From a virus, in IMG/VR virus record IMGVR_UViG_3300037584_000164, positions 1 to 38,585 of that record: a stretch of DNA of 38,585 nt; one strand, written 5' to 3'. Below, piece after piece: positions 3,074 through 38,585 of the stretch. The position numbers and the translations under genes are program-made. Positions within the stretch are counted from its first letter, which is position 1. Each line of letters begins with the position of its first letter. The notes beneath the pieces are model-generated. The model did no database searches and was not told the DNA's origin. It was given only the letters and a program-made list of their open reading frames with translations.

Positions 3074-6000
3074 CTGTTAAATAATTCCCCATATTGCTCT
3101 TTTGGCACACTTAATGGTGATCTAACTCTAGCTGCAATAGCCTGATTAGCTGGAGATAAACCTAAAGCCGCACCAGTGCCAGGATTTGTTACATCTATGC
3201 TTCCAACAGCAGTGTTTGGATTTGCAGTTTGTATTCCTTGTATTTGATTTGTTGACTGACTTACAACGTCTCTTACAGCTTTATTTACACCTGCGTTTTC
3301 TGCAAGTGCTCTTACTTGATTTGATGTATCGTTTACGCTTTCTTCAACAGATTGTGTGATGGCTTGACCTGGTCGGAAAGCATTGGACACGGCAGTTAAA
3401 AACACTCTTTGTTGTTCGGCAGTTGGATTTGCAGTTCCCTCTAATTTTTTAGAAGCTTCAACAATCTCTTTCATAGCTTTCTTACCAGTAAATAACTGGC
3501 CAAGAACGAACATTTTAGCAATTCTACCCACATTGTTGAATACATTAGCCAATATACCTGCAGCAACAAGATCGCCCTTTGGTATATTATTTGATATTCT
3601 AGTTAGTATTTTGCCAAAATCTCTAATATTTCCAGCAACATCTTTTGTTGCTCCAGAATTTGGGAAAATTATATCAAGCTTGTTACTCTTATCTGCTCTA
3701 GCAATATTTTTTGCTAGTTGCTTCATACCATCTGCGTTTGTTACGGCACCAACATTATCAAGCATATTCTCAACATAACTACCTCTGATAGTTTTAAGTT
3801 CTGCTGGACTGTTTTTATAAAAGTTCATAACGGCTTTTAGATCGCCACGAGTAGCACCTGGAGACATGACCAAATCCAAAGCTTCTTCTGGGTCTAAATT
3901 ATTGTTTCTAATTTTTGCAAACACACTATTAGATCTTAGTCTTGATGTCTCTTGTAAAGTTTCTATTGTATCTCCTAAAGCTTTAGCAACATTGCCATCT
4001 GCGTCTAAACCTTGTTTAACTAAAGTGCTAACTGTTTCTTCATCTAAATTTGTTATTTTTAAGTCTTCAAATTGTTTAGCAAAAGTTTTTAATTGATTGT
4101 ATTTTTGTCTACCATAAAGCTCAACGCCAGTATCACCTAAATCATCTAATGATTTAATAAACTCATTTGGCTTAAAATTTGTTGGTTTTATAGAATCAAA
4201 ACCAGTTTTGTTTAAAGCACCTTGCAACCAATCTTTACCCATTTGATTTTTGACTTGATTATATTGCGTATCATCTAAAGCTTTTTTTAATCTGTTAAGA
4301 CCAGTGGGTGTGCCACCTTTGCCAATAACTTTTTGAGTTAGTCCAGTTAAAGCTCCAGGCCTTGCGATGTTAAATGCTCCACTACGCATTTGAGCAACAA
4401 GTTCTTTAGACCCTAAAGTGCTTGATATATCGTTATATAAAGCGGTTCCCTCTCTGAATTGTTTTCTTGCTTTAGGCAATAATTTAGATGCAACTTGTAT
4501 TTTGCCGAATGCGTCTGAACCTAATTGTTCGGTAATGTCTTTGGTAAGTGAGTCAATATTTGACCTTAGAAGAAGGTTGTCAACTTTGAGAATTGCATCA
4601 TCCCAAACTTCAGTTAAATTAAAAGAGTTATCAATTATGCCTTTTTGTGCAAGTTCAGCTTCTGTTTTTGGTGCATTTTTGAGATCCCAAAGTTTTCTTC
4701 TTAGTTGGTAAGCATCTGTAAATGATGCTTTATCACCTAACGCTCTTAGATCTTCTACTAAAGATAGACCAATTCTACCCTCTTGTGTAGCTAATCTACC
4801 AGTCCCTGCTTGTGCAAATTTCTTTTCTGCTAAATCTGCAACTTCTTTAACTAAACTTGTAGGTATAATTCTAGCATCACCAATAGATGTCTCAATGACC
4901 TCATTTATAGTAGCCCATTGTTGTGACATAGTATCTTCAAAGTTCTTTGCAGATTGTTGCACAAAGTTAAAAACATTATCATCTATAAGTTGATTACGCT
5001 CTAATCCACCTGCTAAATTATCAGCAGATTGTTTTAAGGCACTCATAATTGTACCATAAGCTTGTGTTTGTTTTTGTGCTAATTCTTTACCAAACTTCTT
5101 CTCAAACTCAATAAACAACTGTCCTGCGGATTTTTGACTACCCTCTGTAGCCGCTTGACTAATAAAACTGTTAAGTTCGTTGATTTCTTTTTCCATAGCT
5201 GCAGCTATTTTTTGCGTTCTTGGTGAGCCACCTAATACGCTCTCTTGTAATTGTTGAAACTTCGCGGCTATAGGTCTGCCTTTTATTTGTGCTATAGTAG
5301 GCTCTAAACCTTTTTCAATACCTTTTGCAGTAATTTTTAAATCTTCTTTACTTGCCTCTTGTATAAATTTCTTACCAGAAGGTGCTATTGCTCGGTAAGC
5401 TAATAAAGGTATGCCGAACAACAGTTCACCCGCAGCAGCTATGCCACCTTCGATTGCTGCATCTTGTGCAATGTCTCCAGCAGTTTGTTCGGAAACACCA
5501 GCAATACCCTCAATGGCTTCTTCAACAAGAGAGCCACCGCCACCACCAATAAAAGCTCCAACCGCACCACCAAGTAATGTTCCAATACCTGGAGCAATAC
5601 CAGTTCCTATGGCAGCACCCTTTATTGCACCTGCAACACCAAATCCAAGTTCTGGTATTATGCCAACTAAATCAGATAAATCGTTTCTACTAAAACCTTC
5701 TTCATCAATGAGGACATTTTTATCTGTTTGCACTCCAACCTTTTCAGCACCAGTGGGTGTTAAGGCAAGTCTACCTCGATTATCTCTTATATAATCTGAC
5801 CTAGTAAACCCTTGTGCAGCCAATATCTTTTCTTGTTCTGCATCATTTTCTGCAACTGACAATGCAGACCTAAGACCAAAATCTTGAATACCAGACTCTG
5901 TATCAAAGTTCGCTTGTGTTGGTTGACCTTTTACTTGAGAAGTTGTTTTTGTTTCTTCTAATAAATCATCAAAAGTAGGATCTTGTCTTTGTGTTTTAAA

Positions 6001-6102
6001 AAATTGTGATCTAATAGCATTTGTTTCTTGTTGAGTTGGTTCATCACCTGCTATCTCAACCTTTACTACTCCTTGTGGAGTTTCAACATTTATTATAGCC
6101 AT
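3070..6102 (-). CDS. Large ejection/internal virion-type protein
   Basis: A 1010-aa protein. The first 40 residues (containing GVVKVEIAGDEPTQQE) and the IDEEGFSRNDLSDL segment (132-145) are familiar from large marine podovirus proteins. Residues about 147-190 are a glycine-rich hydrophobic stretch with GxxxG spacing, and 217-240 a second one, suited to membrane insertion. Most of the remainder is helical and Lys/Asp/Gln-rich. It lies after the tail genes and before lysozyme, where podoviruses place proteins ejected with the DNA. It may form part of the conduit across the cell envelope. No catalytic motif was found. The start overlaps the preceding stop as TAATG. Confidence 0.55.
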   Translation of the reverse strand: MAIINVETPQGVVKVEIAGDEPTQQETNAIRSQFFKTQRQDPTFDDLLEETKTTSQVKGQPTQANFDTESGIQDFGLRSALSVAENDAEQEKILAAQGFTRSDYIRDNRGRLALTPTGAEKVGVQTDKNVLIDEEGFSRNDLSDLVGIIPELGFGVAGAIKGAAIGTGIAPGIGTLLGGAVGAFIGGGGGSLVEEAIEGIAGVSEQTAGDIAQDAAIEGGIAAAGELLFGIPLLAYRAIAPSGKKFIQEASKEDLKITAKGIEKGLEPTIAQIKGRPIAAKFQQLQESVLGGSPRTQKIAAAMEKEINELNSFISQAATEGSQKSAGQLFIEFEKKFGKELAQKQTQAYGTIMSALKQSADNLAGGLERNQLIDDNVFNFVQQSAKNFEDTMSQQWATINEVIETSIGDARIIPTSLVKEVADLAEKKFAQAGTGRLATQEGRIGLSLVEDLRALGDKASFTDAYQLRRKLWDLKNAPKTEAELAQKGIIDNSFNLTEVWDDAILKVDNLLLRSNIDSLTKDITEQLGSDAFGKIQVASKLLPKARKQFREGTALYNDISSTLGSKELVAQMRSGAFNIARPGALTGLTQKVIGKGGTPTGLNRLKKALDDTQYNQVKNQMGKDWLQGALNKTGFDSIKPTNFKPNEFIKSLDDLGDTGVELYGRQKYNQLKTFAKQFEDLKITNLDEETVSTLVKQGLDADGNVAKALGDTIETLQETSRLRSNSVFAKIRNNNLDPEEALDLVMSPGATRGDLKAVMNFYKNSPAELKTIRGSYVENMLDNVGAVTNADGMKQLAKNIARADKSNKLDIIFPNSGATKDVAGNIRDFGKILTRISNNIPKGDLVAAGILANVFNNVGRIAKMFVLGQLFTGKKAMKEIVEASKKLEGTANPTAEQQRVFLTAVSNAFRPGQAITQSVEESVNDTSNQVRALAENAGVNKAVRDVVSQSTNQIQGIQTANPNTAVGSIDVTNPGTGAALGLSPANQAIAARVRSPLSVPKEQYGELFNR

Positions 6103-8015
6103 TATGTAGTCTCTTGTGCTTTAAATCTATATACGCCATCTTCACCAACAACCATCTTAGTTCCTAATGATCCAGCACCTTTTCTATCTACTTTAACACC
6201 AAATTTTTCTAAATTGCTATAAGCTTCTTCAATCTCATCTCTTTTACTTGCAGTAATTTGTTTAAATAATCTACCAAGTTTAGATTTAAGTAGTTTAATA
6301 TCAGCGTCACCACTTATAACGCCTATACCTCCAACTATTGTATCAACTAATCTTCTATCAGCATCAGAAATAGTTTTACCACTTTCACCTAAAATCTCTG
6401 CCGCACTTCTAGCTTTAAGTTCGGTTAACAAAGTATTTAATTGTTTTACTGGATCTGTTTCGCCATCGTCTATTGGCACACCAAAAGATATAGCTAACTG
6501 TTTAGCAAAAGATCTAGCTTGTTGTGGCAGAGCAACACCAGTTTGATTAATTACTTTTGCAATATCTCTAAACTTATCAATACGTCTTGTTAAGTCTTTT
6601 TCTATTGTCCCGATTGCGTTTACTGCTATATCAGGAGCAACAACTCTTGATTTTGCACCAGTGTCATTGTTTGGATTTGCATAAAAAACATCAAAAGTTA
6701 TCTTAGATCCACCGAACAATGGAACTGATCTAGGCTTTTCTAAATATACTTTTTTCTTATTTTTATTAGCAGCATTAATAAGAGTTTTTGTCATTTCATT
6801 AAAAGAAGAAGCATCTACAACCTCGAATCTTTTGCTAAATTCAGGGTTTTCCAATAAATTGTTAAGCTCATAACTATTAAGCCTTGAAAATCTACCTGTG
6901 TTTTGCAGAATACTTCTCTGAAGACCACCCTCTCTAGGTATAACAACGTAACCTTTTCTATCCATTGCTTTCTGTTGATCTGATTCTTTTTTACTTAAGG
7001 CATATGAACCTGCTTTAGCTCTTATTGCTTCTGCTTTGGCCACTGCTTTTCTAAAGTCTGGCATTGCAGCTTCGCCTGCTTCACCCACAGATGTAAGTAT
7101 TTTGCTTATATCAAAGCCTTTACCTGCCCTATTTTGCATAAGTGCTAACCCAAAGGACATAAGTGCTTGTTTAGTATCTGCCTCACCAGATACATCCAAT
7201 CCAGTAGCCTCGCCGAATTCATTTATGTACTCATCAAATGTTTTAGGACTTATTCCAGGTCTTGCTTCTGCTAAGAATGCGTCTAAAGCCTTAACTGTAG
7301 CCTTTTTAGCAGGTGTATCTGCACCCTCTACCTCATTATCTCCAGTTGAATCTTTTGTATCTGCATCAAAGTCACTATCAAAACTCGTATCAACAACTTG
7401 ACTTGTGTCAACTTCAGAAGATTTGTTTTTTTCTTGTTCTTTTATTTTATCCACAGTTGCTTGATCAACTTCGCCTTGTGGATCAAACGCACCTACATCA
7501 CCAACACTTTTACCTATTAAATTTTTAAGTGCCTCTGATGTTTCAGATGTTAAACGATCTTGTCCTTGTTGTGTAAAAACATCTGATCCTGGTATGGATG
7601 ATGTTTGATCTTCTGGCAAAAACAATTCTGGACCTGCACCAATTACCTTATCTTTAGTTTGTTCTTTAAACTCTTCTGGCGTTACTTGTGATAAATAATC
7701 ACCAAGTATGTTTCCTGCAGGATTTGTTAAAGCACCGATACCACCAGTAAGTAATCTACCTCCCTCAAGAGCCGCTAACGGAATATCCATAAGAAAATTT
7801 AATGCTCTTCTACCCTCTGTTTTAGGAGCACCATACATTTGCTCCATGCTTTTAACTGGAGAAATAAATGTTTTAGCAGCTGGACCAGTGCCTGAAAACA
7901 ATCCTTGTCCGTATAGACTAGACAGTTCTCCAAATGTTTTAGGTTTTTGAGGGAGACCTAAACTTTTTAATAAAGTATCCGTATCTCCAAGATTTAAACC
8001 TTGTTTTGGTGCCAT
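6102..8015 (-). CDS. Large virion protein of the ejection cluster, function unknown
   Basis: 637 aa from the ATG at 8015. An upstream GTG at 8045 is possible, but the ATG has AGAGGG just upstream and lies one base after the preceding stop, as with most neighbours. The N-terminal third is Gly/Pro-rich with PAKTFISPVKSMEQMYG. A central acidic linker (EVDTSQVVDTSFDSDF) precedes a long helical region with AEAIRAKAGSYALSK. It also holds GKTISDADRRLVDTIVGG, and the phrase TISDADR recurs in the protein at 32020-32703. Place and size suggest a structural or ejected protein. No enzyme motif was seen. Confidence 0.5.
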   Translation of the reverse strand: MAPKQGLNLGDTDTLLKSLGLPQKPKTFGELSSLYGQGLFSGTGPAAKTFISPVKSMEQMYGAPKTEGRRALNFLMDIPLAALEGGRLLTGGIGALTNPAGNILGDYLSQVTPEEFKEQTKDKVIGAGPELFLPEDQTSSIPGSDVFTQQGQDRLTSETSEALKNLIGKSVGDVGAFDPQGEVDQATVDKIKEQEKNKSSEVDTSQVVDTSFDSDFDADTKDSTGDNEVEGADTPAKKATVKALDAFLAEARPGISPKTFDEYINEFGEATGLDVSGEADTKQALMSFGLALMQNRAGKGFDISKILTSVGEAGEAAMPDFRKAVAKAEAIRAKAGSYALSKKESDQQKAMDRKGYVVIPREGGLQRSILQNTGRFSRLNSYELNNLLENPEFSKRFEVVDASSFNEMTKTLINAANKNKKKVYLEKPRSVPLFGGSKITFDVFYANPNNDTGAKSRVVAPDIAVNAIGTIEKDLTRRIDKFRDIAKVINQTGVALPQQARSFAKQLAISFGVPIDDGETDPVKQLNTLLTELKARSAAEILGESGKTISDADRRLVDTIVGGIGVISGDADIKLLKSKLGRLFKQITASKRDEIEEAYSNLEKFGVKVDRKGAGSLGTKMVVGEDGVYRFKAQETT

Positions 8016-8016
8016 C

Positions 8017-8946
8017 TTACCCTCTGTTCGCTGTAGCTCCACCAAATGGTGCTATTTGTGATAATGTAGTATAAGCACCCACACCTTGTAAAAATGGATT
8101 TGCGGCGGGTGTTGTTGCTTGTTGAAATGTAGATGGAATACTTGCACTAGGCATACCTTGCAATAAATTCTGACCTATCTGCAATCTTGTAAAAGGCTCT
8201 TGTGCTTGTTGCATAAGATTAGCTCTCATTGCATCTAATCCTGCTTGTTGTTGTCTTTGTCTTAATCCACCTAATTGTGATAATTGTGATACATCTGCTT
8301 GACCTAAAGCTTGTTGTAAACGCCCTAAATCACTTGTTGTACCTGCTAATGTGCCAAATGCTTGTCCAATACCACCAGATAATCTTCCTGCGTCTTGTGA
8401 GGCTTTTAAAGCTTGTCCAAAGCCTTGTGATAAAAGCTTTGTTAATGTATCGCCTTTGACTTGTTGTAAACCTCTTTCGGTTTCTGCTCTTTGCACACCC
8501 TCTCTTGATCCACCAAATGCTCCTGCTTTAATAGCTTGTGCATCGGCTCCAGCTCTACGCATATCAGCTTGTCTGTTTAACTGATTCATTGCCACATCAA
8601 TGACTTGTTCTTGAAATGGATCTTGAAATCTTTTAATAGAATCTGGTTGTAAGAAACCTAAACCACTTGTTAAGGCTTGTTGTGCTGCAAGTGATTGATC
8701 TGCTGCTCCTCGCATAAAAGGTTGAAATGCACCAACCATTTGTTCGCCAAGTTGCGTTGCTTTATCTTGTAGTGGATCTGTTCCAGCAATTTGAAATCCC
8801 GGCAAACCTAAAGGTCTGTCTAATAATCCTGGTGCAGTTTGAGTTTCACCATCAAAGGTGCCAAACCCAGTTTGTAACATACGTTTTTGTAAACCCTCTA
8901 AAAATGGGGGTAATCTTTGTATATTTTCTACAGTTTGAACTGCCAT
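8017..8946 (-). CDS. Gln/Gly/Ala-rich putative DNA-injection protein
   Basis: A 309-aa helical protein unusually rich in Gln, Gly, Ala and Leu, with repeated short stretches such as LQKRMLQTG, GLGFLQP, FGQALKAS, LQQALGQA and LRQRQQQAG. Composition and place (between a GEFVLTKDAV-type protein and the two large ejection-type proteins) match internal proteins that podoviruses inject with DNA. There is no signal peptide and no cysteine. The start at 8946 shares bases with the previous stop (TAATG). Confidence 0.5.
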   Translation of the reverse strand: MAVQTVENIQRLPPFLEGLQKRMLQTGFGTFDGETQTAPGLLDRPLGLPGFQIAGTDPLQDKATQLGEQMVGAFQPFMRGAADQSLAAQQALTSGLGFLQPDSIKRFQDPFQEQVIDVAMNQLNRQADMRRAGADAQAIKAGAFGGSREGVQRAETERGLQQVKGDTLTKLLSQGFGQALKASQDAGRLSGGIGQAFGTLAGTTSDLGRLQQALGQADVSQLSQLGGLRQRQQQAGLDAMRANLMQQAQEPFTRLQIGQNLLQGMPSASIPSTFQQATTPAANPFLQGVGAYTTLSQIAPFGGATANRG

Positions 8947-23655: not shown

Positions 23656-24567
23656 TTATGCGGCTCCTGGAGAACCAAACACAGCACGAGGGTCTGAAAA
23701 ACCAAAGGCATAACGCTCTCTAGCTTTATATCTCATGTTGCCTGTATCAAAGTCAGCTTCCATGCTTGTGCTTAATGGTGTTCTTTCAAAATATTTGAAA
23801 CCATTTGGAGCATCTGTTTTTAAGAAAAACGCATCTGTGTCTGTTAAGAAATGGTTAATTGTATAACCCTCTGGTAACATACCTCTATTTTTAATAGCGT
23901 TTAAGTCATTGTCAGATGTTCCAACTCTAAGAGTTGACTCAAGCAATCTATCTGCAACAAATTGTAGTGAAGGTGGAACAATTAATTTCATTCCTCTTAA
24001 TGCAACAATCATGTTTCTCTCATCAACAAAGTTTGAAATGTCAATAAGAGCATTTTCTAATGATGTTTCATTAAGATCTGCTGCAGTTGATGGTTCATTT
24101 CTAAATGTACCACCACCACCTAATGGGTGGTCTGTTGCACAAAGCTCTTTACCATCACCACCTGTAAAGCTTGAATCAAACGCATTGTTTAAAACTGCAG
24201 CGGCTTTGACTTGCTTTGTGTGTGCCATTGATCTTGCTAACGCTCTTGTGTATCTTGCTCCAAGCTGATCATACAAGTTGTCTTCCATTGCTTCTTCTGT
24301 CAATGCAAAAGCTAATGCAATAGTTTCCATTGTATATCTTGAAGTATATACTTCGTTTGCAGAATCAAAGGCTACTCCAGCACCCTCTGATTTTGTTGCA
24401 GCATTACCAAAACCACTCAACATTACCTCTTCCTCAAAAGCTCTGTCAGAAGATTCTGTCTCATAAATTTCAGTATGCTCTTGGTCGTAACGATCATATT
24501 CCATGCCGAATAAAGCGTTAAGACCAGGTTCTAGTTCTTTAACTAGTTGTGCTCTTGATATAGCCAT
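23656..24567 (-). CDS. Major capsid protein, Mu gpT-like (HK97 fold)
   Basis: A 303-aa protein forming the head shell. It shows the pattern of the gpT-like marine phage capsid proteins: FALTEEAMEDNLYDQLGARY (86-105), KAAAVLNNAFDSSF, CATDHPLGGGG, RNMIVALRGMKLIVPPSLQF, then DNDLNAIKN and a conserved C-terminal RYKARERYAFGFSDPRAVFG. The HK97 fold is known for the family. The start has AAGGGAG upstream. Genes for scaffold-like, co-chaperonin and accessory proteins lie directly before it and a strong terminator directly after it. No separate prohead protease gene was recognised. Confidence 0.88.
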   Translation of the reverse strand: MAISRAQLVKELEPGLNALFGMEYDRYDQEHTEIYETESSDRAFEEEVMLSGFGNAATKSEGAGVAFDSANEVYTSRYTMETIALAFALTEEAMEDNLYDQLGARYTRALARSMAHTKQVKAAAVLNNAFDSSFTGGDGKELCATDHPLGGGGTFRNEPSTAADLNETSLENALIDISNFVDERNMIVALRGMKLIVPPSLQFVADRLLESTLRVGTSDNDLNAIKNRGMLPEGYTINHFLTDTDAFFLKTDAPNGFKYFERTPLSTSMEADFDTGNMRYKARERYAFGFSDPRAVFGSPGAA

Positions 24568-24580
24568 AATCTAATCTCCC

Positions 24581-25165
24581 TTACGCTAATCCTGCACCTT
24601 TTTGTCCAAATATGCTATTTTGAATAACTACTTGAACATTGGTGGCATCGGAACCAACATCGCTATTTTCTGGATCTTGTGATATATCTATCGCTTTGAT
24701 CGGTAAACCAGCGGTTGTTGCACCTGTTGTTACATCCAACTCTGCACCAGAAATACCAGTTACAGTAGAACCTGCACTTGTATATACGATGTCAAAGTTA
24801 CCAAATAAATCCGCAATTGGAAATGCAGCGTCACATTGAATCTCATAGACAACATTTGGGTCATCTATAATAAAAGCTTCAATGTCGGAAGCATTTGTGC
24901 TTGCAGGATAAAAGTTTGAAAAAGTTTCCTTTTTCGTGGTTGGGTCTGTATACCTACAACCATTGAATACTCCAACTATTGGAACAGTACCGCCATCAGC
25001 GTGTACCTCTACAGTTCCACCAGTAACTTGCATAACCATGTCACCTTGGAAAATAGAAGTTCCATAATTGGCAGCGATTCTATATCGGCTTTGTCCACCA
25101 TGAAAGGCTGCTCCGCCTACCATTTTTAAAGGACGCATTCCGAAAGCAGCATCTTGATTTGCCAT
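24581..25165 (-). CDS. Head decoration/stabilising-type protein
   Basis: A 194-aa protein beginning MANQDAAFGMRPLKMVGG, with SIFQGDMVMQVTGG, PIVGVFNGCRYTDPTTKK and SFGN-like strands. It is beta-rich and lies directly before the capsid gene, where decoration or capsid-stabilising proteins are usual in gpT-type phages. AGGAG precedes the ATG. I recognise it as a conserved marine phage protein, but the role is by position. Confidence 0.65.
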   Translation of the reverse strand: MANQDAAFGMRPLKMVGGAAFHGGQSRYRIAANYGTSIFQGDMVMQVTGGTVEVHADGGTVPIVGVFNGCRYTDPTTKKETFSNFYPASTNASDIEAFIIDDPNVVYEIQCDAAFPIADLFGNFDIVYTSAGSTVTGISGAELDVTTGATTAGLPIKAIDISQDPENSDVGSDATNVQVVIQNSIFGQKGAGLA

Positions 25166-25190: not shown

Positions 25191-25643
25191 TTAATTTTGC
25201 CTCTTGCCACCAAAGTGAACTTGAGACTTCCTATCTTTTGATATTGGCATAGCAGGATTTGATTCTTTCATTAAATCTCTATCTACAGCCTCCATCTGGG
25301 TACTCGTTTTATTCCTAAAATAATCATTTCTTTCTTCAACTATTTCATCTGGAATCCGTGCTAATAAAAGACCCCCTTGACCAATTACTCCAGCATTTTT
25401 GCCTTCATCAATCACAGGTGCTTCAAAATCAGGGAAATCTTCAGCACGAACTAATTCATATCCCTCTCTTTGTCGCTTATAGATATTTGCTTTATCATCA
25501 TAATCCATAACTCGTTCTCTAATCCACCTATGTTTATATCCAATAGGTGCGGGTGGAGCATCTAATTGAGATGGGGGTGTCCAAGCTTTTCTTCTTTCCT
25601 GCTTTTCACGAGTTGCAGTCTCTCGGTTGCTTCTATCCACCAT
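25191..25643 (-). CDS. Conserved capsid-module protein, function unknown
   Basis: 150 aa from the ATG at 25643. A longer frame starts at 25688, but the ATG at 25643 has AAGGAG seven bases upstream and follows the scaffold stop by one base, so it is preferred. The protein is charged: ATREKQERRKAWTPPSQLDA, PIGYKHRWIRERVMDY, then IYKRQREGYELVRAEDFP and a Lys-rich end. It looks like a small accessory of head assembly; no motif tells its role. Confidence 0.6.
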   Translation of the reverse strand: MVDRSNRETATREKQERRKAWTPPSQLDAPPAPIGYKHRWIRERVMDYDDKANIYKRQREGYELVRAEDFPDFEAPVIDEGKNAGVIGQGGLLLARIPDEIVEERNDYFRNKTSTQMEAVDRDLMKESNPAMPISKDRKSQVHFGGKRQN

Positions 25644-25644
25644 T

Positions 25645-26589
25645 TTAGGCTCCTTTCCTGGTTTCAATTTTAGATACCTCTTTTGCATATTGCTCTAAAG
25701 GTATTCTCATTTTTTTTGCAAATGCAACTTGTCCAGGTGTAAGTTCTATTTGCTTTTTCCGCCCACTGTTAATGGCTTTGCCATTAGATGCAGGTGCGAC
25801 AGTTTGGGCGTTCTTTCTGTCTACCTGAAACTTTTGTGGAAACTCTGTCCTCATTCGTTTATCTATTTCTTTGTAATATTGATCAGTTGCGGGATCAAAT
25901 CCCTCTGATATTACTATTTCATGTAAAGCTTGAGCACCTCTAGTCATTACCATGTCAGTAGCAAACCATGTGTTTTTATCAAGCCAACTTTGTAGTTTTG
26001 GATCTAACTCTTGTTTTTGAGGGGTCTGCCTCGCTTGGGCTTCTTTTGCTTGAGCTTGTCCCTCATTTGTTGGAGCTGCCTTGCTTTGCTCCGTTCTAAT
26101 TTTTTGGATTCTGAGTCTTTCGTTCTCAATAGCGAGTTTAGCCATGAGATCGCTTGCTTCAGACATTTTGTCAGCGTCTCCAGCATCAAAAGCCTCCTTA
26201 TAAAGTTTTTTAGCTTGTGCAGTTTGAGACTCAATTCTACTACCAAATTCTGATGTGTAACCAGTATTAAGTTGCTCAAGCTTTTTTTGAAGTTCTTCAT
26301 TTTGCTTTTTTTGATCTTCAGCATATTTAAAAGCGGCATCTGCCTCCTCCAAAGCTAATTTTCTTTTTGCTGTTAATTGATTAATTCTTTTTTGTACGTT
26401 CTCGCTGTAATTTTCAAGTTCTTCTTCTTGATCCTCACTGCGAACATCTGTTCGCTCTGTATTATCTTGTTGAGCCTCAACAACATCTTCTTTTTTTTCA
26501 GAAGTTTCATCTATGTCAACAATTGTGTTTTCTTCTTGAGAATTTTCTTCTTTTATTTGTTCTTGTGCTTCATTCATCATGTTCTCCAT
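25645..26589 (-). CDS. Scaffold-like capsid assembly protein
   Basis: A 314-aa protein just before the capsid genes. Residues 1-60 are very acidic (Glu/Asp), residues about 60-175 are a predicted coiled coil (RINQLTAKRKLALEEADAAF, KKQNEELQKKLEQL), and the C-terminal part ends in a basic helix (RMRIPL-type and KKQIELTPGQVAFAKKMRIP). This is the design of phage scaffolding proteins, which bind the shell through a C-terminal helix. The frame can start at 26589 (TAATG), but the ATG codons at residues 4 and 5 lie three and six bases after GGAG, so the real N-terminus may be MNEAQEQ. Confidence 0.75.
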   Translation of the reverse strand: MENMMNEAQEQIKEENSQEENTIVDIDETSEKKEDVVEAQQDNTERTDVRSEDQEEELENYSENVQKRINQLTAKRKLALEEADAAFKYAEDQKKQNEELQKKLEQLNTGYTSEFGSRIESQTAQAKKLYKEAFDAGDADKMSEASDLMAKLAIENERLRIQKIRTEQSKAAPTNEGQAQAKEAQARQTPQKQELDPKLQSWLDKNTWFATDMVMTRGAQALHEIVISEGFDPATDQYYKEIDKRMRTEFPQKFQVDRKNAQTVAPASNGKAINSGRKKQIELTPGQVAFAKKMRIPLEQYAKEVSKIETRKGA

Positions 26590-27062
26590 TATACATAAGA
26601 AATATCTGTTGGATCAAGTATTTTTGCAATTATATTATCATCATTTATGATTCTAAGCTCAAGTCCATCTACTTTGAACCTATTTCCCGCATATCTACCC
26701 ATAAGCACCCATTCTTTTTCAGAGCAATACGCTCCACTTGGGAATTTATCAGAATCTTGATATGCGTCAGAACCAAGTTTTACGACATAAGCGACAACTG
26801 TTGCGTAACTTTCTCTATCTCTTGTTGCATCTGGTATAAATACGCCACCTTTTGTTTTTTCCTTTGGATAATATGGAATAACAAGCATTCTATATCCAGT
26901 TGGAGTTGGTAGTCTATCAATAACAGAAGAGTCTAGCTTTGAAGGATCGTCTTCATTTTTGCTAGTTTCATCATTTTTAAATGCCTTTGATATGGCAGGA
27001 GAAGTAGGATTTACTTTTTTTTGTGCCAAAAACCTATCTGGCACATATAACTTTTTACTCAT
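26589..27062 (-). CDS. GroES-like co-chaperonin (T4 gp31 type role)
   Basis: A 157-aa protein. After a polar N-terminal extension of about 50 residues comes a GroES-like domain (50-152): RLPTPTGYRMLVIPYYPKEK (50-69), KGGVFIPDATRDRE in the place of the mobile loop, VVAYVVKLG, KEWVLMGRYAG where GroES has a GD-x-V-x-F/Y stretch, and LRIINDDNIIAKI at the end, like the ESDILAIV close of GroES. T4 gp31 and similar phage proteins replace host GroES to fold capsid protein; the gene here lies directly before scaffold and capsid genes. It overlaps its upstream neighbour by eight bases. Confidence 0.8.
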   Translation of the reverse strand: MSKKLYVPDRFLAQKKVNPTSPAISKAFKNDETSKNEDDPSKLDSSVIDRLPTPTGYRMLVIPYYPKEKTKGGVFIPDATRDRESYATVVAYVVKLGSDAYQDSDKFPSGAYCSEKEWVLMGRYAGNRFKVDGLELRIINDDNIIAKILDPTDISYV

Positions 27063-27246
27063 CTTCTATACCTTTCATCGAGGCTCTTATTTCTTCAATT
27101 ACCCAAGTCATGCCTCGTATTTGACCTGTAATAAACCGATAGTCTTCCATTGAGTCTATCGAACCATCTGCTAAAGACTGTGATAATTCATCTTGTCTTT
27201 TGCGAATGTTCTTTAATAAATGCTCTGCTAATTTAATACTGTCCAT
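27055..27246 (-). CDS. Small coiled-coil protein
   Basis: A 63-aa helical protein: MDSIKLAEHLLKNIRKRQDE, DSMEDYRFITGQIRGMTWVI. Proteins with this pattern are common next to capsid-assembly genes in marine and other phages. It overlaps the co-chaperonin gene by eight bases. Function is unknown; it likely forms oligomers. Confidence 0.6.
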   Translation of the reverse strand: MDSIKLAEHLLKNIRKRQDELSQSLADGSIDSMEDYRFITGQIRGMTWVIEEIRASMKGIEDE

Positions 27247-27247
27247 A

Positions 27248-27400
27248 TTAAGATTCTACACATGTGGTTAAGCAAATAGGACATTTATACTCATCATAAT
27301 GATAAATCCCAAGCTCTGGTATTGGTTCCTCATGTTCTACTTTTTTCATTGCTACTTTATGGATATAACATATGACAACTTTTTTTGTTTCTTCTTCCAT
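27248..27400 (-). CDS. 50-aa zinc-ribbon-like protein, short gene
   Basis: The ATG at 27400 overlaps the holin stop (TAATG) and opens a 50-aa frame ending just before the next start. It holds CYIH (11-14), CPIC (40-43) and C47 in CPICLTTC. CxxH plus CxxC can form a zinc knuckle pair. The rest is charged with IPELGIYHYDEY. The coupling signals and the metal-site pattern support a real gene. It may bind nucleic acid or protein. Confidence 0.75.
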   Translation of the reverse strand: MEEETKKVVICYIHKVAMKKVEHEEPIPELGIYHYDEYKCPICLTTCVES

Positions 27401-27795
27401 TACTTAGCCAAACCCTTTTGCTTCTCGTATGTCCGCAATCCTCCAATTCCTAACATTCCTCCAAGGACAGTTAAAAGTGTACCCATGTCAAATTCTGGCA
27501 ATTCTGGTAGTTCTGCTCCTGCAAAACTTGCACCAAATATAATTAGGTCTTTAAGTATAAAATGATATGCAAAAGCAATCGCACAGACCCACCCAACAGC
27601 GGGTCGCCAACCGCCCTTAAATATAGAGCCACTTGCGGCCTCTGCCTTGTTAATCTCTAACTGTGCGAGCAGAGCCTCTTGAGCATGTTTTTCAGACATG
27701 GTGGCTATCTCGTGTGCGAGCTTTGCCTTTTGGTCTGCATCTGGAATAAATTTGTCTAAAAGTCCAGTAACTGGACCTATAAGTGCTTGTAACAT
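27400..27795 (-). CDS. Holin of the 3TM superfamily
   Basis: A 131-aa inner-membrane protein. The N-terminal amphipathic part with HAQEALLAQLEINKAEAASG is followed by GGWRPAVGWVCAIAFAYHFI (61-80), a second hydrophobic stretch (81-94) and a third (about 105-121) before RTYEKQKG. WRPAxGW and RTxEKxKG are signatures of the 3TM holin family. It would open the membrane at lysis and let the lysozyme (2624-3073) reach the wall. GGAGG lies just before the start. Its place in the head-gene region, far from lysozyme, is notable. Confidence 0.85.
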   Translation of the reverse strand: MLQALIGPVTGLLDKFIPDADQKAKLAHEIATMSEKHAQEALLAQLEINKAEAASGSIFKGGWRPAVGWVCAIAFAYHFILKDLIIFGASFAGAELPELPEFDMGTLLTVLGGMLGIGGLRTYEKQKGLAK

Positions 27796-29617: not shown

Positions 29618-32017
29618 TTATCCTTTCATTGCTCTCATTGCAGCTACATCTCTTGTTGTTTGATCTCTTTGATTAGCTATTTCTTCTTGTTGATCTAATC
29701 TTTGTTGATCTAGCAATACATCATTTCTTTCTTTTTCTTTATCCAGTGTTTGCTTCTTTTCAAATTGGTCTTGTTTTTGTGCTATCTCTTGCCCTCTTAG
29801 TGCCAACTCTTGTTTTCTTATTGTTACAAGTGGATCTTCACTTGGAGGTGGTGTTAAGGCTTGTGCGTATTGTTCTTGTATCTCTGCCGCTAATTCAGCA
29901 CTTCTTGATGCCATCTGATCTTGCACAGCTTTCATTGCATTTGGATCTTGTTGCATCATCATTTGTTGCTCTGGTGGTATTGATGCCATGACTTCTTGTT
30001 GTGCTTGTAACTCTGACATCAAAGCAATATGTTCTGATATATGACCTTGTAAAGTCATTATTATTGCTGCATTAGCTTGTGCCACTGGTGTACTAATCAT
30101 AGCTAAATGTGCAGTTATATGTGCTTGATGATTTTGTTCTGGAAAAGCATTTAAAGCACCACCTTTTAAAGCCTCTTGATTTTCTTTAGCTGGATTTAAA
30201 GGCATCGGTTGTGGTGGTGGTTGCAAGACTGCTTCAATGTTTGTAACACCTAATGCCTCATACATCTTCCTATATGCTTGATACATACCATTTGGACCAT
30301 GAATATCTGGATTGCTTTGTGCTAACTGTAATTGTGTCTGTGCCAAAGCAATACGTTGTGACATAGAAAATATGTTTGGATCAGATACTGGCAGTATATC
30401 TATTCTGTCATCAAAGTCTGTTTGCTTAATCTCTGGCGGAGCACCTGGAACTTGATATGGATACATTGGTACATCCATAGCAAACAATCTAGCTAACAAC
30501 TTAAACTCAATCTTCTGTGAGTAATGTAACCTTTTATGAATAGCAGACATAACTTTTGTTCCACGCTCCATAATAGCCATAGTTGTGCCAACTGGTGCAT
30601 TGCCTTGCATTTCACCAACTTTCATATCAGCCATTGATGCAAAACGTCTGCCTGTGTCTATTAGATTGCCAAGTAAAGAATACAAGGTTTGAGATGGCTC
30701 CTTAAATGGTAATGGCATGATTGCTTGACGCAAATCCATACCCACCATATCTACATCTCTAAACTCGCCAGGACTTAGTGGAGTTTCATCATCTCTAATC
30801 CTTGCACCTCTTGCTTTAAATCCTGCAGGTAAGTTTGATAAAGTACCTGCGTCTATTAGTTGTCTTAATATTGATGTTGATGCTCTTGATAAGCCACCTA
30901 TCATATGAGTAAGACCAAACCCATAAAACCCAAGACCAGGTAAGAACTTATAATGAACAAAATAAGGGATTTTCCGACGGAGCGGATCACTTTCATTGAA
31001 ATTACGCTTGATTGATAAGATTTCACTGGACTTCTCCACTATGGTTACGACATAGGGCATTTTGAGTCCTGTAGGCTCTCCTTGAGAATCCATATCCTCA
31101 AAACCTGACAAATCTAAATCTGTGTGAACTTCATGTAATGTTATTTCTTCATTGTAACCTGTGCCTTTATCAATGCCCTCAATATCACTTATTGTTTCTC
31201 TTACCTCATCATAGTTTGTTCCCCCATTTTCTGATGTAGGCAAGTCTATATCTCTGTAAAATCCACTAAGCTGCAACTTTCTTACCTCGTTCTTGTTCAT
31301 GCGTATAACATGAGCAATACGAGTTGATGTTCTTAAGTCTGTCGCATTGTAAGGCACAATTAAATCTTCTGCATGGACAAACTTTGAAACCGCTCGTTGC
31401 ATTGATGGATCAAAATAAACTTTTTTAAATGCTGAACCTACAATTGGAAGATAAAATAACATTTGATCTAACTCTGGATCATATTCTTCCATCTCATAAG
31501 TTATTTGGTAATTCATATAATTTTTAACACGCTCTGCTTGTGATAAAAGTTCTGGACTTTCAGCACCTACAATGTGTGTTCGCACTGGACCACTTGCTGG
31601 TAGCATTTCTCTATATGCTTGTGCTTGAAACTGTGTAACGCTTTCTGCTAATAATGGGTGTACTATTCCAGAAGCACCTTCAAACGGCTCGGCTCTGTCT
31701 TCGTAATTCATGCCAAGTAATTCTAAACCACTTTTATATTGATCTTCCCAATCTCTTCTTGATTGTATATCATTTTCTATATCACCAACAATATCACTTG
31801 CAATTGTACCAAGCTCTCCGTCATCTATGTGTTCTGCTAAGTTGGCATCAAATGGTATGGATATAGGTGCATCTAATTGTTCTTGCATCTCACCTATAAT
31901 AGCAGATCCGTCTTCAAACTCTGTTATGCCAGGTGTTATTTCTGTTTCAGTAACAGCAACTTGCACACCTTCTGGTAATGCGGCGTTCTCTATACCATTT
32001 ACTTTTTCAATAGCCAT
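29618..32017 (-). CDS. Portal protein, P22-like
   Basis: A 799-aa protein, the size of large podovirus portals (P22 portal 725 aa). It forms the ring through which DNA enters and leaves the head. Recognisable stretches are RRDWEDQYKSGLELLGM, PFEGASGIVHPLLAESVTQF, EYDPELDQMLFYLPIVGSAF and KFLPGLGFYGFGLTHMIG. The C-terminal 65 residues are Gln/Lys/Glu-rich and helical, fitting a barrel or coiled coil (KKQTLDKEKERNDVLLDQQR). It lies after terminase and three small basic proteins. The start at 32017 lacks a strong ribosome site and follows the previous stop by two bases. Confidence 0.85.
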   Translation of the reverse strand: MAIEKVNGIENAALPEGVQVAVTETEITPGITEFEDGSAIIGEMQEQLDAPISIPFDANLAEHIDDGELGTIASDIVGDIENDIQSRRDWEDQYKSGLELLGMNYEDRAEPFEGASGIVHPLLAESVTQFQAQAYREMLPASGPVRTHIVGAESPELLSQAERVKNYMNYQITYEMEEYDPELDQMLFYLPIVGSAFKKVYFDPSMQRAVSKFVHAEDLIVPYNATDLRTSTRIAHVIRMNKNEVRKLQLSGFYRDIDLPTSENGGTNYDEVRETISDIEGIDKGTGYNEEITLHEVHTDLDLSGFEDMDSQGEPTGLKMPYVVTIVEKSSEILSIKRNFNESDPLRRKIPYFVHYKFLPGLGFYGFGLTHMIGGLSRASTSILRQLIDAGTLSNLPAGFKARGARIRDDETPLSPGEFRDVDMVGMDLRQAIMPLPFKEPSQTLYSLLGNLIDTGRRFASMADMKVGEMQGNAPVGTTMAIMERGTKVMSAIHKRLHYSQKIEFKLLARLFAMDVPMYPYQVPGAPPEIKQTDFDDRIDILPVSDPNIFSMSQRIALAQTQLQLAQSNPDIHGPNGMYQAYRKMYEALGVTNIEAVLQPPPQPMPLNPAKENQEALKGGALNAFPEQNHQAHITAHLAMISTPVAQANAAIIMTLQGHISEHIALMSELQAQQEVMASIPPEQQMMMQQDPNAMKAVQDQMASRSAELAAEIQEQYAQALTPPPSEDPLVTIRKQELALRGQEIAQKQDQFEKKQTLDKEKERNDVLLDQQRLDQQEEIANQRDQTTRDVAAMRAMKG

Positions 32018-33172: not shown

Positions 33173-33540
33173 TATCTTGTTCCTTTAAAGCTACCACCAC
33201 GACCGGGTACAACACCACCCATATTCATTTTTTTAATTCTCAATCCTTTTCCAAATATTTCTTCACCTATCTTTTGAATTTTATCCATATTTGGCACTTT
33301 TTTAATTTTAGTCATATCAGAAGGCTTCAAACCTTTTATAGCTTTTTTTAAGTTTTTTGTAATTTCTCCACCATCTTCCTTTTTAACTGGCTCTGGATCT
33401 AAATCTTGTATGTACTTTCTTACTCCACCAGTGTCTTCTCCTTTGACAAAATCTAATTCTTTTTTTCCAAAGTTTTTCTTAATAAAAGAACCATATTTGT
33501 TTAAAAGCTGTGACTTGCTCATTTTACCATAGTCTGCCAT
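33172..33540 (-). CDS. Small basic GG-motif protein after terminase
   Basis: A 122-aa protein: KMSKSQLLNKYGSFIKKNFG, ELDFVKGEDTGGVRKYIQ, KEDGGEITKNLKKAIKGLKP and MNMGGVVPGRGGSFKGTR at the end. It is Lys-rich and probably partly disordered. It overlaps the terminase stop (TAATG). A packaging-linked role is suggested only by its place. Confidence 0.6.
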   Translation of the reverse strand: MADYGKMSKSQLLNKYGSFIKKNFGKKELDFVKGEDTGGVRKYIQDLDPEPVKKEDGGEITKNLKKAIKGLKPSDMTKIKKVPNMDKIQKIGEEIFGKGLRIKKMNMGGVVPGRGGSFKGTR

Positions 33541-35009
33541 TAGTAATACTCCATCTTTCTTCTGTAAGCGGGTTCAAACTCTTCATCGTCTGGTGTGGAT
33601 ATAAAACCACCTTGTCTGAATCTTAGTATAGCCTGTGTCATCGAGTCTGCCAAGTCATCATGGTCGCCATGTGGAAAACTAGCACACTCTTCAACAACCT
33701 CCTCTGCAAAATTAGCGTCTGGTCTCCATACCATTCCACTCTCAAAGACTGGAGCACACGCATTCATTCTTGCAAACTTATCAGAACCTTTGCTTGGTGT
33801 AAATGGTGTAACAGGAACGCCCATACGCCTTAACTCTTGTGTTAAAGGTGTACCACTGGCTTTCTGCTCTATTAAAATCATGTCAGGATCATATGCTTCG
33901 CACAATTCCATTGCTTTTTGTTTGAGTTCTGGAAAATCCCATCTGCCCTTTTCTGCGTCAAGCAAGATGATGGCATCTCCTTCTCCCTCAACGGGAGTAA
34001 AGATACCCCAAGTAGTAATAGCACTAAAATCAGAACGCTCATTTTTTGTAAACGCTGTGTCGTAGGATTGTATGATGTACGAACAGGCAGGTGGGTTACT
34101 AGGATTCCAAACATTCCACCACTCCCTTTTGATAATTGCACCCTCTTCGGCAGTAGGGTTTTGCATATATTGTGCATTCCATTTGCCTACGGGTATAGAT
34201 GCCTTAACACCCTCTAATTCTTCTCTGCTCCAATACTCTGGCCATAATACATTATCTGTGTCTGGAAATATAGCAGGAAACTCCACAACCTCCCACTTAT
34301 CAGCTCCACCTTGAGCTTGTTTTTGTAAAACCCTAGCCGTTAAATCCTTAATACCCCATCTGGTCATCACAACAATTATAGATCCACCTGGCTGCAATCT
34401 CTGCCGTGGTCCAGATGTGTACCACTCGTAAATACTATCCAATGCCGTTGGACTTAACGCATCTTGCTCTGATACTGGATCATCAATGATAAGTAAGTCT
34501 GCACCTCTTCCAGCTAACGCACCCCCTACACCAACAGCGTAATACTCACCGCCTTTGTTCGTTGACCATCTGCCAGATGCCTTCGCATCTGCTGCCAGTT
34601 TGACCTCTGGAAATATATCCCTAAAGTCCTCGCTATCAATTAAGTTCTTAACCTTACGACCAAAACCAACGGCAAGTTCTGCCGTATGTGTTGCTTGTAT
34701 TATCTTTAAATCTGGTCTTCTTCCCATTAACCATGAGGGAAACAAATAACTGGCAAATTCAGATTTGGTATGTCTTGGCGGCATATTAACAATCAAACGC
34801 TTAATCTTACCATCTGCTACTTGTTGTAATTTATCTGCGTATATCTTGTGGTGCCTGCCCTCAATGAAAGAAGGCCAGATACGCTTTACAAAATCCATGT
34901 ACTTGTCTTGACTTACTTTCTGCTTTTCAAGCATCGTCAGACGATCAAGCATAGGAGCTATCTTGGATAACTCATCATCACTTAAATATTCTGCAAAATC
35001 TAATTTCAT
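33540..35009 (-). CDS. terL: Terminase large subunit
   Basis: A 489-aa DNA-packaging motor. The ATPase half has the Walker A-like PPRHTKSE (77-84), Walker B LLIIDDPV (172-179) and MTRWG (215-219). The nuclease half has SYDTAF with D317, LIEQKASG with E381 and HDDLADS with D451 and D455, the usual metal-site residues. Size and motifs fit the Terminase_6/HK97-P22 type, as known for many marine podoviruses. It overlaps the preceding gene by four bases (ATGA). A small terminase subunit is not obvious; the HTH protein at 36794-37201 is a candidate. Confidence 0.95.
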   Translation of the reverse strand: MKLDFAEYLSDDELSKIAPMLDRLTMLEKQKVSQDKYMDFVKRIWPSFIEGRHHKIYADKLQQVADGKIKRLIVNMPPRHTKSEFASYLFPSWLMGRRPDLKIIQATHTAELAVGFGRKVKNLIDSEDFRDIFPEVKLAADAKASGRWSTNKGGEYYAVGVGGALAGRGADLLIIDDPVSEQDALSPTALDSIYEWYTSGPRQRLQPGGSIIVVMTRWGIKDLTARVLQKQAQGGADKWEVVEFPAIFPDTDNVLWPEYWSREELEGVKASIPVGKWNAQYMQNPTAEEGAIIKREWWNVWNPSNPPACSYIIQSYDTAFTKNERSDFSAITTWGIFTPVEGEGDAIILLDAEKGRWDFPELKQKAMELCEAYDPDMILIEQKASGTPLTQELRRMGVPVTPFTPSKGSDKFARMNACAPVFESGMVWRPDANFAEEVVEECASFPHGDHDDLADSMTQAILRFRQGGFISTPDDEEFEPAYRRKMEYY

Positions 35010-36751
35010 TGTCCTGTGGATAGAAAATCATCAACTGCTTTAATTAAACCACCATCAGCAAATCCAGCGATACCACCTTGAGCCATAGACCTTGGTGATT
35101 GGATACCCGTTATTTGAGCAATTAATCTGTTTAAATCTCCAGTGTTAAAGCCAGTGCCTTGAAAATCCCCAACACTAGTTGTGAAAGGCGAGTCTACAAC
35201 AACTGGCATTTGTGTTGGTGCAAAAGGATTAGCACCACCCATCATTCCAATATTTGTAGGTGACTTTTCTTCTTCTGGCTTTGGTGTGCGTGGCAAAATT
35301 ATAGGTGAATCACTCTCATCTCCACCTATAGTATTATCATCATACATACCTAATGATGGTGATGTTTTATCAAAAACGTCATACCCATCTACAGATCTGC
35401 CACTACTAAAAAAACCACCAGTCATATCAGTGTCATTACCTGGTTGACCCATACCAATACCATAATTCGTTGTGCCAGTTATATTTCCATCTTTGTCATA
35501 TGTCGGTGCAAAACCTTTTGCGATGTTGTCTAATGTATTTTGAGCACCAGTTTTTGTTGCGGCATTAATCAAACTTGTAATAGCTCCTAAAGTGCCTGGA
35601 ACATTATCAAAAGATGGAAATGAACCTTTCTTAGCTTGGTCCTCAACATTTGATAAAGCATCTATGTCTGTGCTGAAATCACTCTTGTCTCTACTTGAAC
35701 CAAATCCAGTTATGTCTGCATTAGTGTTTGGGCCACTCGTTGGGCTAACTGATGCTATTGAAGGAGCGTTTATACTAGGGCCTAAACCTACGCCTGTTAA
35801 ATCTAAACCTAAAGGATCTTGATCTATACCTTTAGCACCAATGTTACTGAAAGCTGCAGCTATATTCGTAGCCGCTGGTGCTTGATTCATAGCTTGATTT
35901 ATAGCCATAGCATCATCCATTTGTGCCTGTGCTTCTTTACCTTGAGTAGTCATACTATAATCTTCTGGACTCATAGTAACTGAAGGATCAAGTCCTTGTG
36001 CTTGTGCAACATCTGCTGCAAATTGTGGACTGTATGCTAGATTTGAATCTTTACCAACATTGGTTATGTTTGTCCTACCTTTACCCGATTGTGCATTTGC
36101 TGCGGCTACTGCTTGACCAATCGCTGTAGCTGCAGAAAAGTCATCTTCCTGATCTTGTGTGGTGCTGTAAGAATCTGTATAATCCATATCACTGTCTGGA
36201 TCAGAATAGTCAGTGTTGTCACTAAAGTCACTATAGTCAGTATTATCTGAATCATCGTCACTAACACCATCATCAGCACCTGTACCACCAGGGTCAGAAG
36301 AAGCTCCTCCATCTGCCTCTCCACTAGGTCCATCAACTCCTGCACTAGAATCGCCTTCTCCTGGATAAAAACTTGGAATACCCATAGGGCCAGGCTTGTT
36401 TGCACCACCTAAACTTTCTAATATATCACCCTCTTGTGGCGTAATATACGCTAACATATGTGGTTGACCCATGATTTCAGTCTGCCTTGGAGCAACATTG
36501 CCACCCTCTTGCATCATCTGCATAGGTGGATTGAAAATATCTATGTCTGAAATAGAGGGTGCCAGACTTGGAGACATCATAGCACCCATTTGCGGTGCCA
36601 TCGGAGGATTTAATGAACTCGCACCACTCATATTCTTTAAAAAATTGTTGAAATTACCACGACTTAGTGCCGTTGTATCTAATTTTACTGTAGGAGGTTG
36701 TGCAGGGGCTGCGGGGGTAGGCATAAATCCACCCATAGGTCCATTTACCAT
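35006..36751 (-). CDS. Low-complexity virion-type protein with acidic Asp/Ser/Tyr repeats
   Basis: A 581-aa protein encoded just before terminase. The N-terminal 60 residues are Pro/Met-rich. Then comes MMQEGGNVAPRQTEIMGQ and EGDILESLGGANKPGPMGIP, familiar phrases of marine phage structural proteins. Residues about 139-205 are acidic repeats of SDNTDYSD type. The rest is Gly/Asn/Ser-rich. The end has MAQGGIAGFADGGLIKAV. It is probably disordered in large part. Its place before terminase is unusual for a tail protein. GGAG is seven bases before the ATG at 36751. Confidence 0.5.
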   Translation of the reverse strand: MVNGPMGGFMPTPAAPAQPPTVKLDTTALSRGNFNNFLKNMSGASSLNPPMAPQMGAMMSPSLAPSISDIDIFNPPMQMMQEGGNVAPRQTEIMGQPHMLAYITPQEGDILESLGGANKPGPMGIPSFYPGEGDSSAGVDGPSGEADGGASSDPGGTGADDGVSDDDSDNTDYSDFSDNTDYSDPDSDMDYTDSYSTTQDQEDDFSAATAIGQAVAAANAQSGKGRTNITNVGKDSNLAYSPQFAADVAQAQGLDPSVTMSPEDYSMTTQGKEAQAQMDDAMAINQAMNQAPAATNIAAAFSNIGAKGIDQDPLGLDLTGVGLGPSINAPSIASVSPTSGPNTNADITGFGSSRDKSDFSTDIDALSNVEDQAKKGSFPSFDNVPGTLGAITSLINAATKTGAQNTLDNIAKGFAPTYDKDGNITGTTNYGIGMGQPGNDTDMTGGFFSSGRSVDGYDVFDKTSPSLGMYDDNTIGGDESDSPIILPRTPKPEEEKSPTNIGMMGGANPFAPTQMPVVVDSPFTTSVGDFQGTGFNTGDLNRLIAQITGIQSPRSMAQGGIAGFADGGLIKAVDDFLSTGQ

Positions 36752-37605: not shown

Positions 37606-37633
37606 TAGATTTACAAGTTATCTTGTAAATCTA
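37606..37633. repeat. 12-bp inverted repeat spanning the amidoligase stop codon
   Basis: TAGATTTACAAG (37606-37617) and CTTGTAAATCTA (37622-37633) are perfect inverted copies with a 4-base centre that holds the stop codon. A second, smaller dyad (GAATTTAATTC, 37593-37603) follows, then the terminator hairpin. The three in a row may protect the mRNA end or slow the ribosome at the stop. Confidence 0.65.
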
Positions 37634-38585
37634 TTCTCAAACCATGTTTTTAAATCTTGTCTAATATTAGACCATACACAATCATTATTATTATTTAATT
37701 GAATTGTACCATTTGAGATTCTCTCGATTTCCATTGGAATCTTGTATCCATTTAAATCGTAAAGACCATTAGACGAGCCGTTCAAATGACCATAAAATTC
37801 TTGGTTCAATGTAATAACACATTGTGTACATCCAATTTTCCTTCTAATTGTGTTGATTGTTCTTCTTACAGACCTAGCATCGTTAATGCCACATTGACTC
37901 ATAATCTCTTGAGTCGTTGCTCCATTTGGATTCTGACATAATTGAAACACCTTATATAACTTAGAGTTATATGGCATATTGTTAACAAGAGTCTCATTAT
38001 ATCTTGTACCTTGATTAACCATTGAGAATCTTTCGTGGTGTGAATAATCAACAAGAGTAACAATAAACTCAACAAAGTTTTTAAGTTTAGTATTATTTAA
38101 TGTGCCTTGATGTTGTCTGAATTCTATTGTGCCTTTTCCTCCACCATTAGACTCAATGTGTGAAATGTTTATTGCATTAAACTTTCCACCACATACATTC
38201 TGCAATTGAGATAAGTTATCGCAATTCTCAATTCTTGCGACTCTATCTGTCATATTTCTTGCATATCTTGAGTCTCTTCTACTAGGAGCAAGAAATGAGT
38301 TTATTGTTTGTTGATGCTTGGCATATCTAAAACAAATATCTTTTATAACCTCAAATTGAATCGCATCATTTGAATCTTGAAAATATTTATTCTGCCTAAA
38401 CTTAGCAATAGATTTCAAATTGAATTCTTCTGCATCCATTGTAATAGGTTTTAAACCTATATGTACATGATGACCACATTGAGTAGTGACACGACCTCCA
38501 AGATTGATAATAATATCGTTAACTTGCGATGAAATCTGCCATGTTGACTCTGCTTTGAAACTCAATGGAGGAAATACGACCTCGC
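37618..38585 (-). CDS. Amidoligase_2-type ligase with C-terminal winged-helix-like region, 5' end missing
   Basis: The frame is open to the window edge (38583) and begins EVVFPPL, the EVVSPPL-type motif of phage and bacterial amidoligases (glutamine-synthetase-like COOH-NH2 ligases), so the TTG at 38565 is not a start. Further motifs are CGHHVHIG (about 36-43 of the visible part) and GTIEFRQHQGTL. The N-terminal segment is lost. The last 110 residues look different: ATTQEIMSQCGINDARSVRR, then GLYDLNGYKI, like a winged helix. The enzyme would join a carboxylate and an amine on a peptide or cell-wall substrate; the substrate is unknown. It ends in tandem hairpins and a terminator. Confidence 0.75.
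   Translation of the reverse strand, partial: EVVFPPLSFKAESTWQISSQVNDIIINLGGRVTTQCGHHVHIGLKPITMDAEEFNLKSIAKFRQNKYFQDSNDAIQFEVIKDICFRYAKHQQTINSFLAPSRRDSRYARNMTDRVARIENCDNLSQLQNVCGGKFNAINISHIESNGGGKGTIEFRQHQGTLNNTKLKNFVEFIVTLVDYSHHERFSMVNQGTRYNETLVNNMPYNSKLYKVFQLCQNPNGATTQEIMSQCGINDARSVRRTINTIRRKIGCTQCVITLNQEFYGHLNGSSNGLYDLNGYKIPMEIERISNGTIQLNNNNDCVWSNIRQDLKTWFENRFTR

Follow-up and report, generated by a model that had tools for sequence, protein, structure and literature searches.

What a phage gains from a GroES-like co-chaperonin of its own, encoded just before its scaffold-like and capsid genes, and which part of such a lid could be fitted to a client, are the questions raised by the window analyzed here, a partial viral record of 38,585 bases (IMG/VR record IMGVR_UViG_3300037584_000164).

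The lid gene and the capsid cassette

The gene at 26589..27062 (minus strand) starts with ATG and stays open for 157 amino acids; by Pfam, PHROG, and predicted fold its product is a genuine Cpn10/GroES co-chaperonin. Pfam Cpn10 (PF00166) matches residues 53-148 with 39.5 bits against a cut-off of 21.1, PHROG 3188 ("co-chaperonin GroES") matches at 1.9e-10, and a phmmer search of PDB sequences finds the GroES 3nx6 at 2e-7, all chains with E < 0.001 being Cpn10, Cpn20, or Cpn23 co-chaperonins. The AlphaFold2 model, built on a 54-sequence alignment, has a mean pLDDT of 81.2, with means for 10-residue blocks of 81-96 over residues 41-150 and 52-66 over residues 1-40. Rows 1-27 of a Foldseek search with this model are GroES/Cpn10 entries, headed by a chain of the human mitochondrial chaperonin complex (2.5e-7); the highest VIA-align Z is 9.8, for bacterial GroES 8wuc over model residues 51-149, the range taken as the Cpn10 barrel core (26616..26912, minus strand). 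The original prediction, that the gene encodes a GroES-like co-chaperonin, is thus borne out by PF00166, PHROG 3188, and the modelled fold, and the GroES barrel, whose absence from a structure prediction was to count against it, is predicted by the AlphaFold2 core and by both fold comparisons. Chains of T4 gp31 rank below GroES as structural matches (Foldseek E 0.037 and 0.14; VIA-align Z 7.0 and 7.5, at 7-8% identity); with the modelled fold nearer to cellular GroES than to gp31 by these scores, any likeness to gp31 would probably be one of role, not of subfamily.

Read along the minus strand, the genes are terminase large subunit (33540..35009; PHROG 38, 5e-114), portal protein (29618..32017; PF23899 SU10_portal, 1e-13; PHROG 1216), several small genes that include a GTA-type holin assigned by Pfam/PHROG (27400-27795), a 63-aa gene that overlaps the Cpn10 start (27055..27246; PHROG 32603, 4.3e-7), Cpn10, a scaffold-like protein of 314 aa (25645..26589), two conserved cassette proteins of 165 aa (25191..25688; PHROG 36003) and 194 aa (24581..25165; PHROG 37556), and, directly after the latter, the major capsid protein (MCP) of 303 aa (23656..24567; PF25209 Phage_capsid_4, 8e-13; PHROG 371 major head protein, 9.4e-24). 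The position first proposed for the lid, before scaffold and capsid, therefore holds, with MCP as the fourth gene after Cpn10. The Cpn10 stop and the start of the scaffold-like gene share one base (TAATG), an overlap that suggests translational coupling of the two.

The 314-aa protein is given a scaffold label by neither Pfam nor PHROGs, and the PHROG that it matches (28737) has no assigned function. Its AlphaFold2 model, with a mean pLDDT of 75 and a pTM of only 0.37, has helices at residues 53-136 and 139-171 and a C-terminal pair at 285-293 and 298-313; the protein is rich in charged residues and free of cysteine, and on this prediction it fits a scaffold. In the relatives MW574966.1 and OL906435.1 (L058, L061), annotation calls the scaffold-position protein "kinesin-like" or "kinesin motor domain-containing", perhaps from its long helices. 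A decoration role is possible for the 194-aa protein.

This arrangement recurs in known phages. The window has the order of HTVC023P-type phages, namely a small gene, GroES, and proteins of ~300, ~160, and ~190 aa followed by MCP; the GroES of these phages (HTVC023P gp36, HTVC027P gp55, 023Pt_psg01) is of the same family with the same neighbours, at 40-46% identity to the window lid over 82-89% of the query. Roseobacter phage CRP-901, Caulobacter phage RW, Planktothrix phage Pag-Yong1, and Alcaligenes phage QDWS535 likewise have Cpn10, a scaffold-position gene, two small proteins, and MCP in the order of the window, with lids whose N-terminal regions are shorter than the window's and, in QDWS535, with a longer loop. 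Genes of like size occupy the 165-aa and 194-aa places in 7/7 annotated relatives, and a gene of 55-79 aa precedes GroES in 11 of 12, QDWS535 being the exception. The small gene is variously named in relatives, once as "type III secretion system". An ORF of 200-450 aa lies directly behind GroES in 240 of 276 GroES loci; eight loci are incomplete, and 28 are without such an ORF under the rule used.

Linkage of the lid to one capsid lineage

With the window MCP as tblastn query, 21 phage records are matched. PF00166 is over its cut-off in all 14 of those tested; outside this set are MW202604 and six records covered only by a Cpn10 tblastn match. Of 50,697 phage records, 16 have a Cpn10 related to the window lid (E ≤ 0.01); HTVC023P and HTVC027P, with their annotated GroES, belong to these 16. 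In 12 of the 14 MCP-matching records the lid is directly before the scaffold-position gene; these 12 phages are recorded for Pelagibacter, Roseobacter, Caulobacter, Planktothrix, Alcaligenes, Gammaproteobacteria, and unnamed hosts. The two most divergent of the 14 have Cpn10 elsewhere in the genome, away from the capsid. BK063670.1, a virus assigned to Methanomicrobiales with a distant form of the MCP (L581), carries Cpn10 at 42826-43182, upstream of terminase and not in a capsid cassette.

Metagenomic loci extend the comparison. Four MCP queries against IMG/VR give 290 loci, three of the sets being the best 80 of 593-600 or more and hence weighted toward close relatives of each query; the loci are anchored on MCP, not on the lid, with at least one contig (IMGVR 3300025137_001131) present in two of the query sets. 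After exclusion of 120 loci with too short an upstream flank, Cpn10 is upstream of MCP in 170/170 of these best-matching loci with >4.5 kb upstream, within 4.5 kb in 169 and at 4,568 b in the remaining one. Bacterial assemblies yield 80 MCP loci, 23 of which were left out for short flanks; the lid is within 5 kb of MCP in 55 of the other 57. The remaining two (L466 and L482), which lack Cpn10, each have bacterial genes next to incomplete phage genes, L482 also containing a masked stretch; both may be broken or chimeric contigs. The Cpn10 HMM for the locus counts was built from 14 sequences of alignment A1. The control is one capsid lineage, that of HTVC010P, a pelagiphage outside the MCP tblastn matches: no Cpn10 is present in its 80 loci, of which 26 extend 4.5 kb upstream, and PF00166 is in none of the 22 records tested from these 80. 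The capsid linkage of the lid is accordingly stronger than could be known from the window.

Across 104 loci, the distances among GroES and among MCP sequences correlate (Spearman 0.616; permutations as high, 0/999). The correlation is compatible with long co-inheritance of lid and capsid, short of proving that they interact, and both linkage and correlation can also come from vertical inheritance of the whole structural module. The comparisons argue for a near-invariable coupling of the lid to one capsid lineage; linkage does not itself prove the identity of the client.

Parts of this picture are published. GroES is among the 13 core genes of HTVC023P-type phages in a comparison of 82 genomes, the type being defined by PolA similarity (PMC9599517), so the presence of GroES in these relatives, already annotated, is not new. 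As far as the accessible text of that paper goes, it gives presence alone, and neither capsid linkage nor the roof described below; for strict GroES-capsid linkage or an aromatic roof, no account was located in the literature, which in the portions available reports only that GroES is present. A viral metagenome paper lists GroES among the genes of variable genomic islands (PMC6487183), a listing that would conflict with a fixed gene were its phages members of this lineage.

Mobile loop, roof segment, and N-terminal extension

The lid can be divided, by alignment with bacterial GroES, into segments. The comparisons below use 108 phage lids, the representatives left when 289 complete ORFs were clustered greedily with blastp at 70%. 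The mobile loop spans residues 66-84 (26811..26867, minus strand), and its hydrophobic tripeptide for GroEL binding, V74-F75-I76 (26835-26843), is retained within KGGVFIPD. The G-hydrophobic-x-hydrophobic motif of the loop is present in 90/108 relatives, against a shuffled mean of 11.5, and is absent in its strict form from 18/108. For the loop, dN/dS across 51 close sequences is ~0.056, the lowest of the regions computed, though its identity (89%) is below that of the core (92%). The original prediction held that the loop was altered and might tune the lid to host GroEL; this was not borne out, the loop being near-canonical and the window's EKTKGGVFIPD close to the EKTAGGIIIPD of cellular GroES in Pelagibacteraceae assemblies, and an altered loop was rejected as the special feature of this lid. 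Alcaligenes-type lids (L063 at 3348-3689; L150, L160, L165, L166, and L169) have a loop several residues longer, with a KRAKAAGI-like insert.

Residues 97-117 (26712..26774, minus strand) are the segment that we take to be the roof, from alignment with GroES structures and the general anatomy of GroES. It is this segment, not the loop, that in sequence comparison separates these lids most clearly from bacterial GroES. An aromatic residue at the position of window Y101 (26760-26762) is found in 104/108 phage lids and in 0/38 bacterial GroES, the latter being 10 cellular sequences plus 28 chosen among the top scorers in 60 genomes of a single phylum, a sample that favours canonical forms; it is found in 0/8 GroES of phages outside the 21 MCP records. 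At F107 (26742-26744) an aromatic residue is present in 96/108 phage lids in one alignment and 73/108 in another, in 0/38 bacterial GroES in both, and in 1/8 of the other phage GroES. C113 occurs in 52/108 phage lids and in 0/38 bacterial GroES. The BK063670 lid has no obvious aromatic residue at the roof place. The roof signature is a feature for which no earlier description was found in the accessible portions of the literature. T4 gp31 is not known to have the roof hairpin, whereas the window lid keeps the roof segment and has an aromatic residue in it.

The third segment, a polar N-terminal extension of about 50 residues, was noticed at the outset and is indeed present in the window ORF: it covers residues 1-50 (26913..27062, minus strand), begins with MSKKLYVP, and is mostly of low confidence in the model. 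It is predicted to be disordered and is lineage-dependent. The median number of residues before the core in the four MCP-query sets is 46, 2.5, 30, and 25.5, the value of 2.5 belonging to the Alcaligenes-type set, in which the extension is nearly absent and the gene is in the same place; because its length varies by lineage, the extension is unlikely to be essential to a common function. In the 51 close sequences, window included, its mean identity is 73% with dN/dS ~0.18, compared with 92% and ~0.08 for the core, values that indicate constraint, though less than on the core. A short N-terminal motif occurs in 15/37 window-like members, where shuffling gives a mean of 1.2, but it was chosen after looking, in related sequences of which 8/37 were hand-picked from the fourth MCP query, and is only a lead. 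Variation between lineages, and a rate of change above that of the core, weaken the case for the extension as a conserved functional key.

Proposed role of the lid

The observations are probably best explained by a dedicated lid that would work with host GroEL and be specialised for folding the capsid protein of this lineage. Its subunits would presumably assemble as a heptamer and form a dome, which would cap host GroEL through the near-canonical mobile loop, the phage lid taking the place of host GroES while virions are assembled. The resulting cage would be specialised for folding the MCP of this lineage, and possibly the scaffold too, and the specialisation would reside in the roof segment, where an aromatic residue that bacterial GroES lacks may contact the client. 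The lid gene abuts the scaffold-like gene and shares a cassette with the capsid gene, a layout in which lid and client would probably be produced at the same time. GroEL (PF00118) is in 0/15 records, the partial window and 14 phage records, so that a phage-encoded partner was rejected for these records and the partner would be the host's. Cellular GroES/Cpn10 (PF00166) has the same barrel fold and mobile loop; the window lid differs from it in the aromatic roof residue, the N-terminal extension, and a place in a capsid cassette without groEL.

The precedent is T4 gp31, which is needed with host GroEL for the folding of gp23 and which GroES cannot replace; in the accessible text of the report, the favoured explanation is a larger cage for a large client (PMC3012670). 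The gp31-like logic of the original prediction, that a phage brings its own co-chaperonin for capsid folding, finds support here as an inference: in T4 a phage lid of Cpn10 fold serves the capsid protein, and the window lid would do likewise. For an MCP of only 303 aa, extra room in the cage is not an obvious rationale, and the aromatic roof is proposed as the source of client specificity.

That the lid is instead a general folding booster, serving many phage and host proteins and lying near the capsid gene through shared late expression, is unlikely, if the most serious of the alternatives. A near-canonical loop would fit many GroELs, and in some other phages GroES lies among genes not annotated as structural. 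Siphovirus B8b (PMC4294664), which is outside the roof alignment, and jumbo phages have a phage-encoded GroES as the window does. A cellular GroES query matches 56 phage records, a few of them shared with the first set; in eight non-shared records viewed, GroES is among genes not annotated as structural in BcepSaruman, Motura, Vibrio D93, and immuto (which has its own GroEL), beside genes annotated as structural in CBB, one gene away from terminase in PBR31, and among mostly hypothetical genes in DAC16 and Mvi-JY20. A general booster fits poorly with a lid tied to one MCP lineage in 170/170 IMG/VR loci, among the best-matching, and absent from the HTVC010P lineage, and with a Y101 signature that marks the capsid-linked set and none of the eight other phage GroES. 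The place of the gene in the cassette, its one-base overlap with the scaffold-like gene, and the neighbours of the CBB GroES would also suit a structural or assembly protein with a borrowed Cpn10 barrel, one that attaches to scaffold or prohead by its extension and has lost its function with GroEL; the N-terminal motif in 15/37 window-like members, chosen after looking in related sequences, leans the same way. This reading is improbable, given a GroEL-binding loop motif kept in 90/108 lids, a loop dN/dS that is the lowest of the regions computed among close sequences (though with identity below the core's), and an extension that is nearly absent from the Alcaligenes-type set, in which the gene keeps its place.

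Recent capture of a host GroES, as an accessory gene with no special role, has clear Cpn10 homology on its side and is very improbable nonetheless. In a tree of 86 core sequences, a branch with support 100/99 separates the 10 cellular GroES from the 76 phage rows; the tree had only 109 columns and many of its inner forks are weak, and it took six of 12 copies labelled phage, L531, one of those left out, being a frameshifted host-type gene. Three Pelagibacteraceae assemblies (those with L457, L470, and L480) each have a cellular GroES, at 130-131 bits, beside a phage-type Cpn10 at 33.0-47.5 bits, as is consistent with infected cells; the assembly with L468 has the phage-type copy only. The branch, the two-copy assemblies, and the near-fixed presence of the lid across a wide capsid lineage all disfavour recent capture.

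A broader form of the preferred reading, a lid dedicated to the capsid protein, is offered with rather more doubt than confidence: that the whole capsid lineage, in phages recorded for alphaproteobacteria, betaproteobacteria, cyanobacteria, and other hosts, depends on a dedicated GroES whose aromatic roof patch is matched to the capsid protein, that lid and client are co-inherited, and that the roof, rather than the loop or the size of the cage, sets client specificity. T4 gp31, the classic phage lid for a capsid protein, has been accounted for chiefly by the size of its cage. In the loci examined here, a small capsid protein seems to be accompanied, nearly without exception, by its own lid, which has a distinct roof. 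The general question of how a lid, rather than GroEL, selects or helps a client is thereby made testable, and phages that grow on laboratory Caulobacter offer such a pair of lid and client.

Elsewhere in the window, two large ORFs, at 35006-36751 (581 aa) and 6102-8045 (647 aa), have no PHROG match at E 0.001, and an ORF at 37618-38565 partly matches the amidoligase family PHROG 2443 (5.4e-9).
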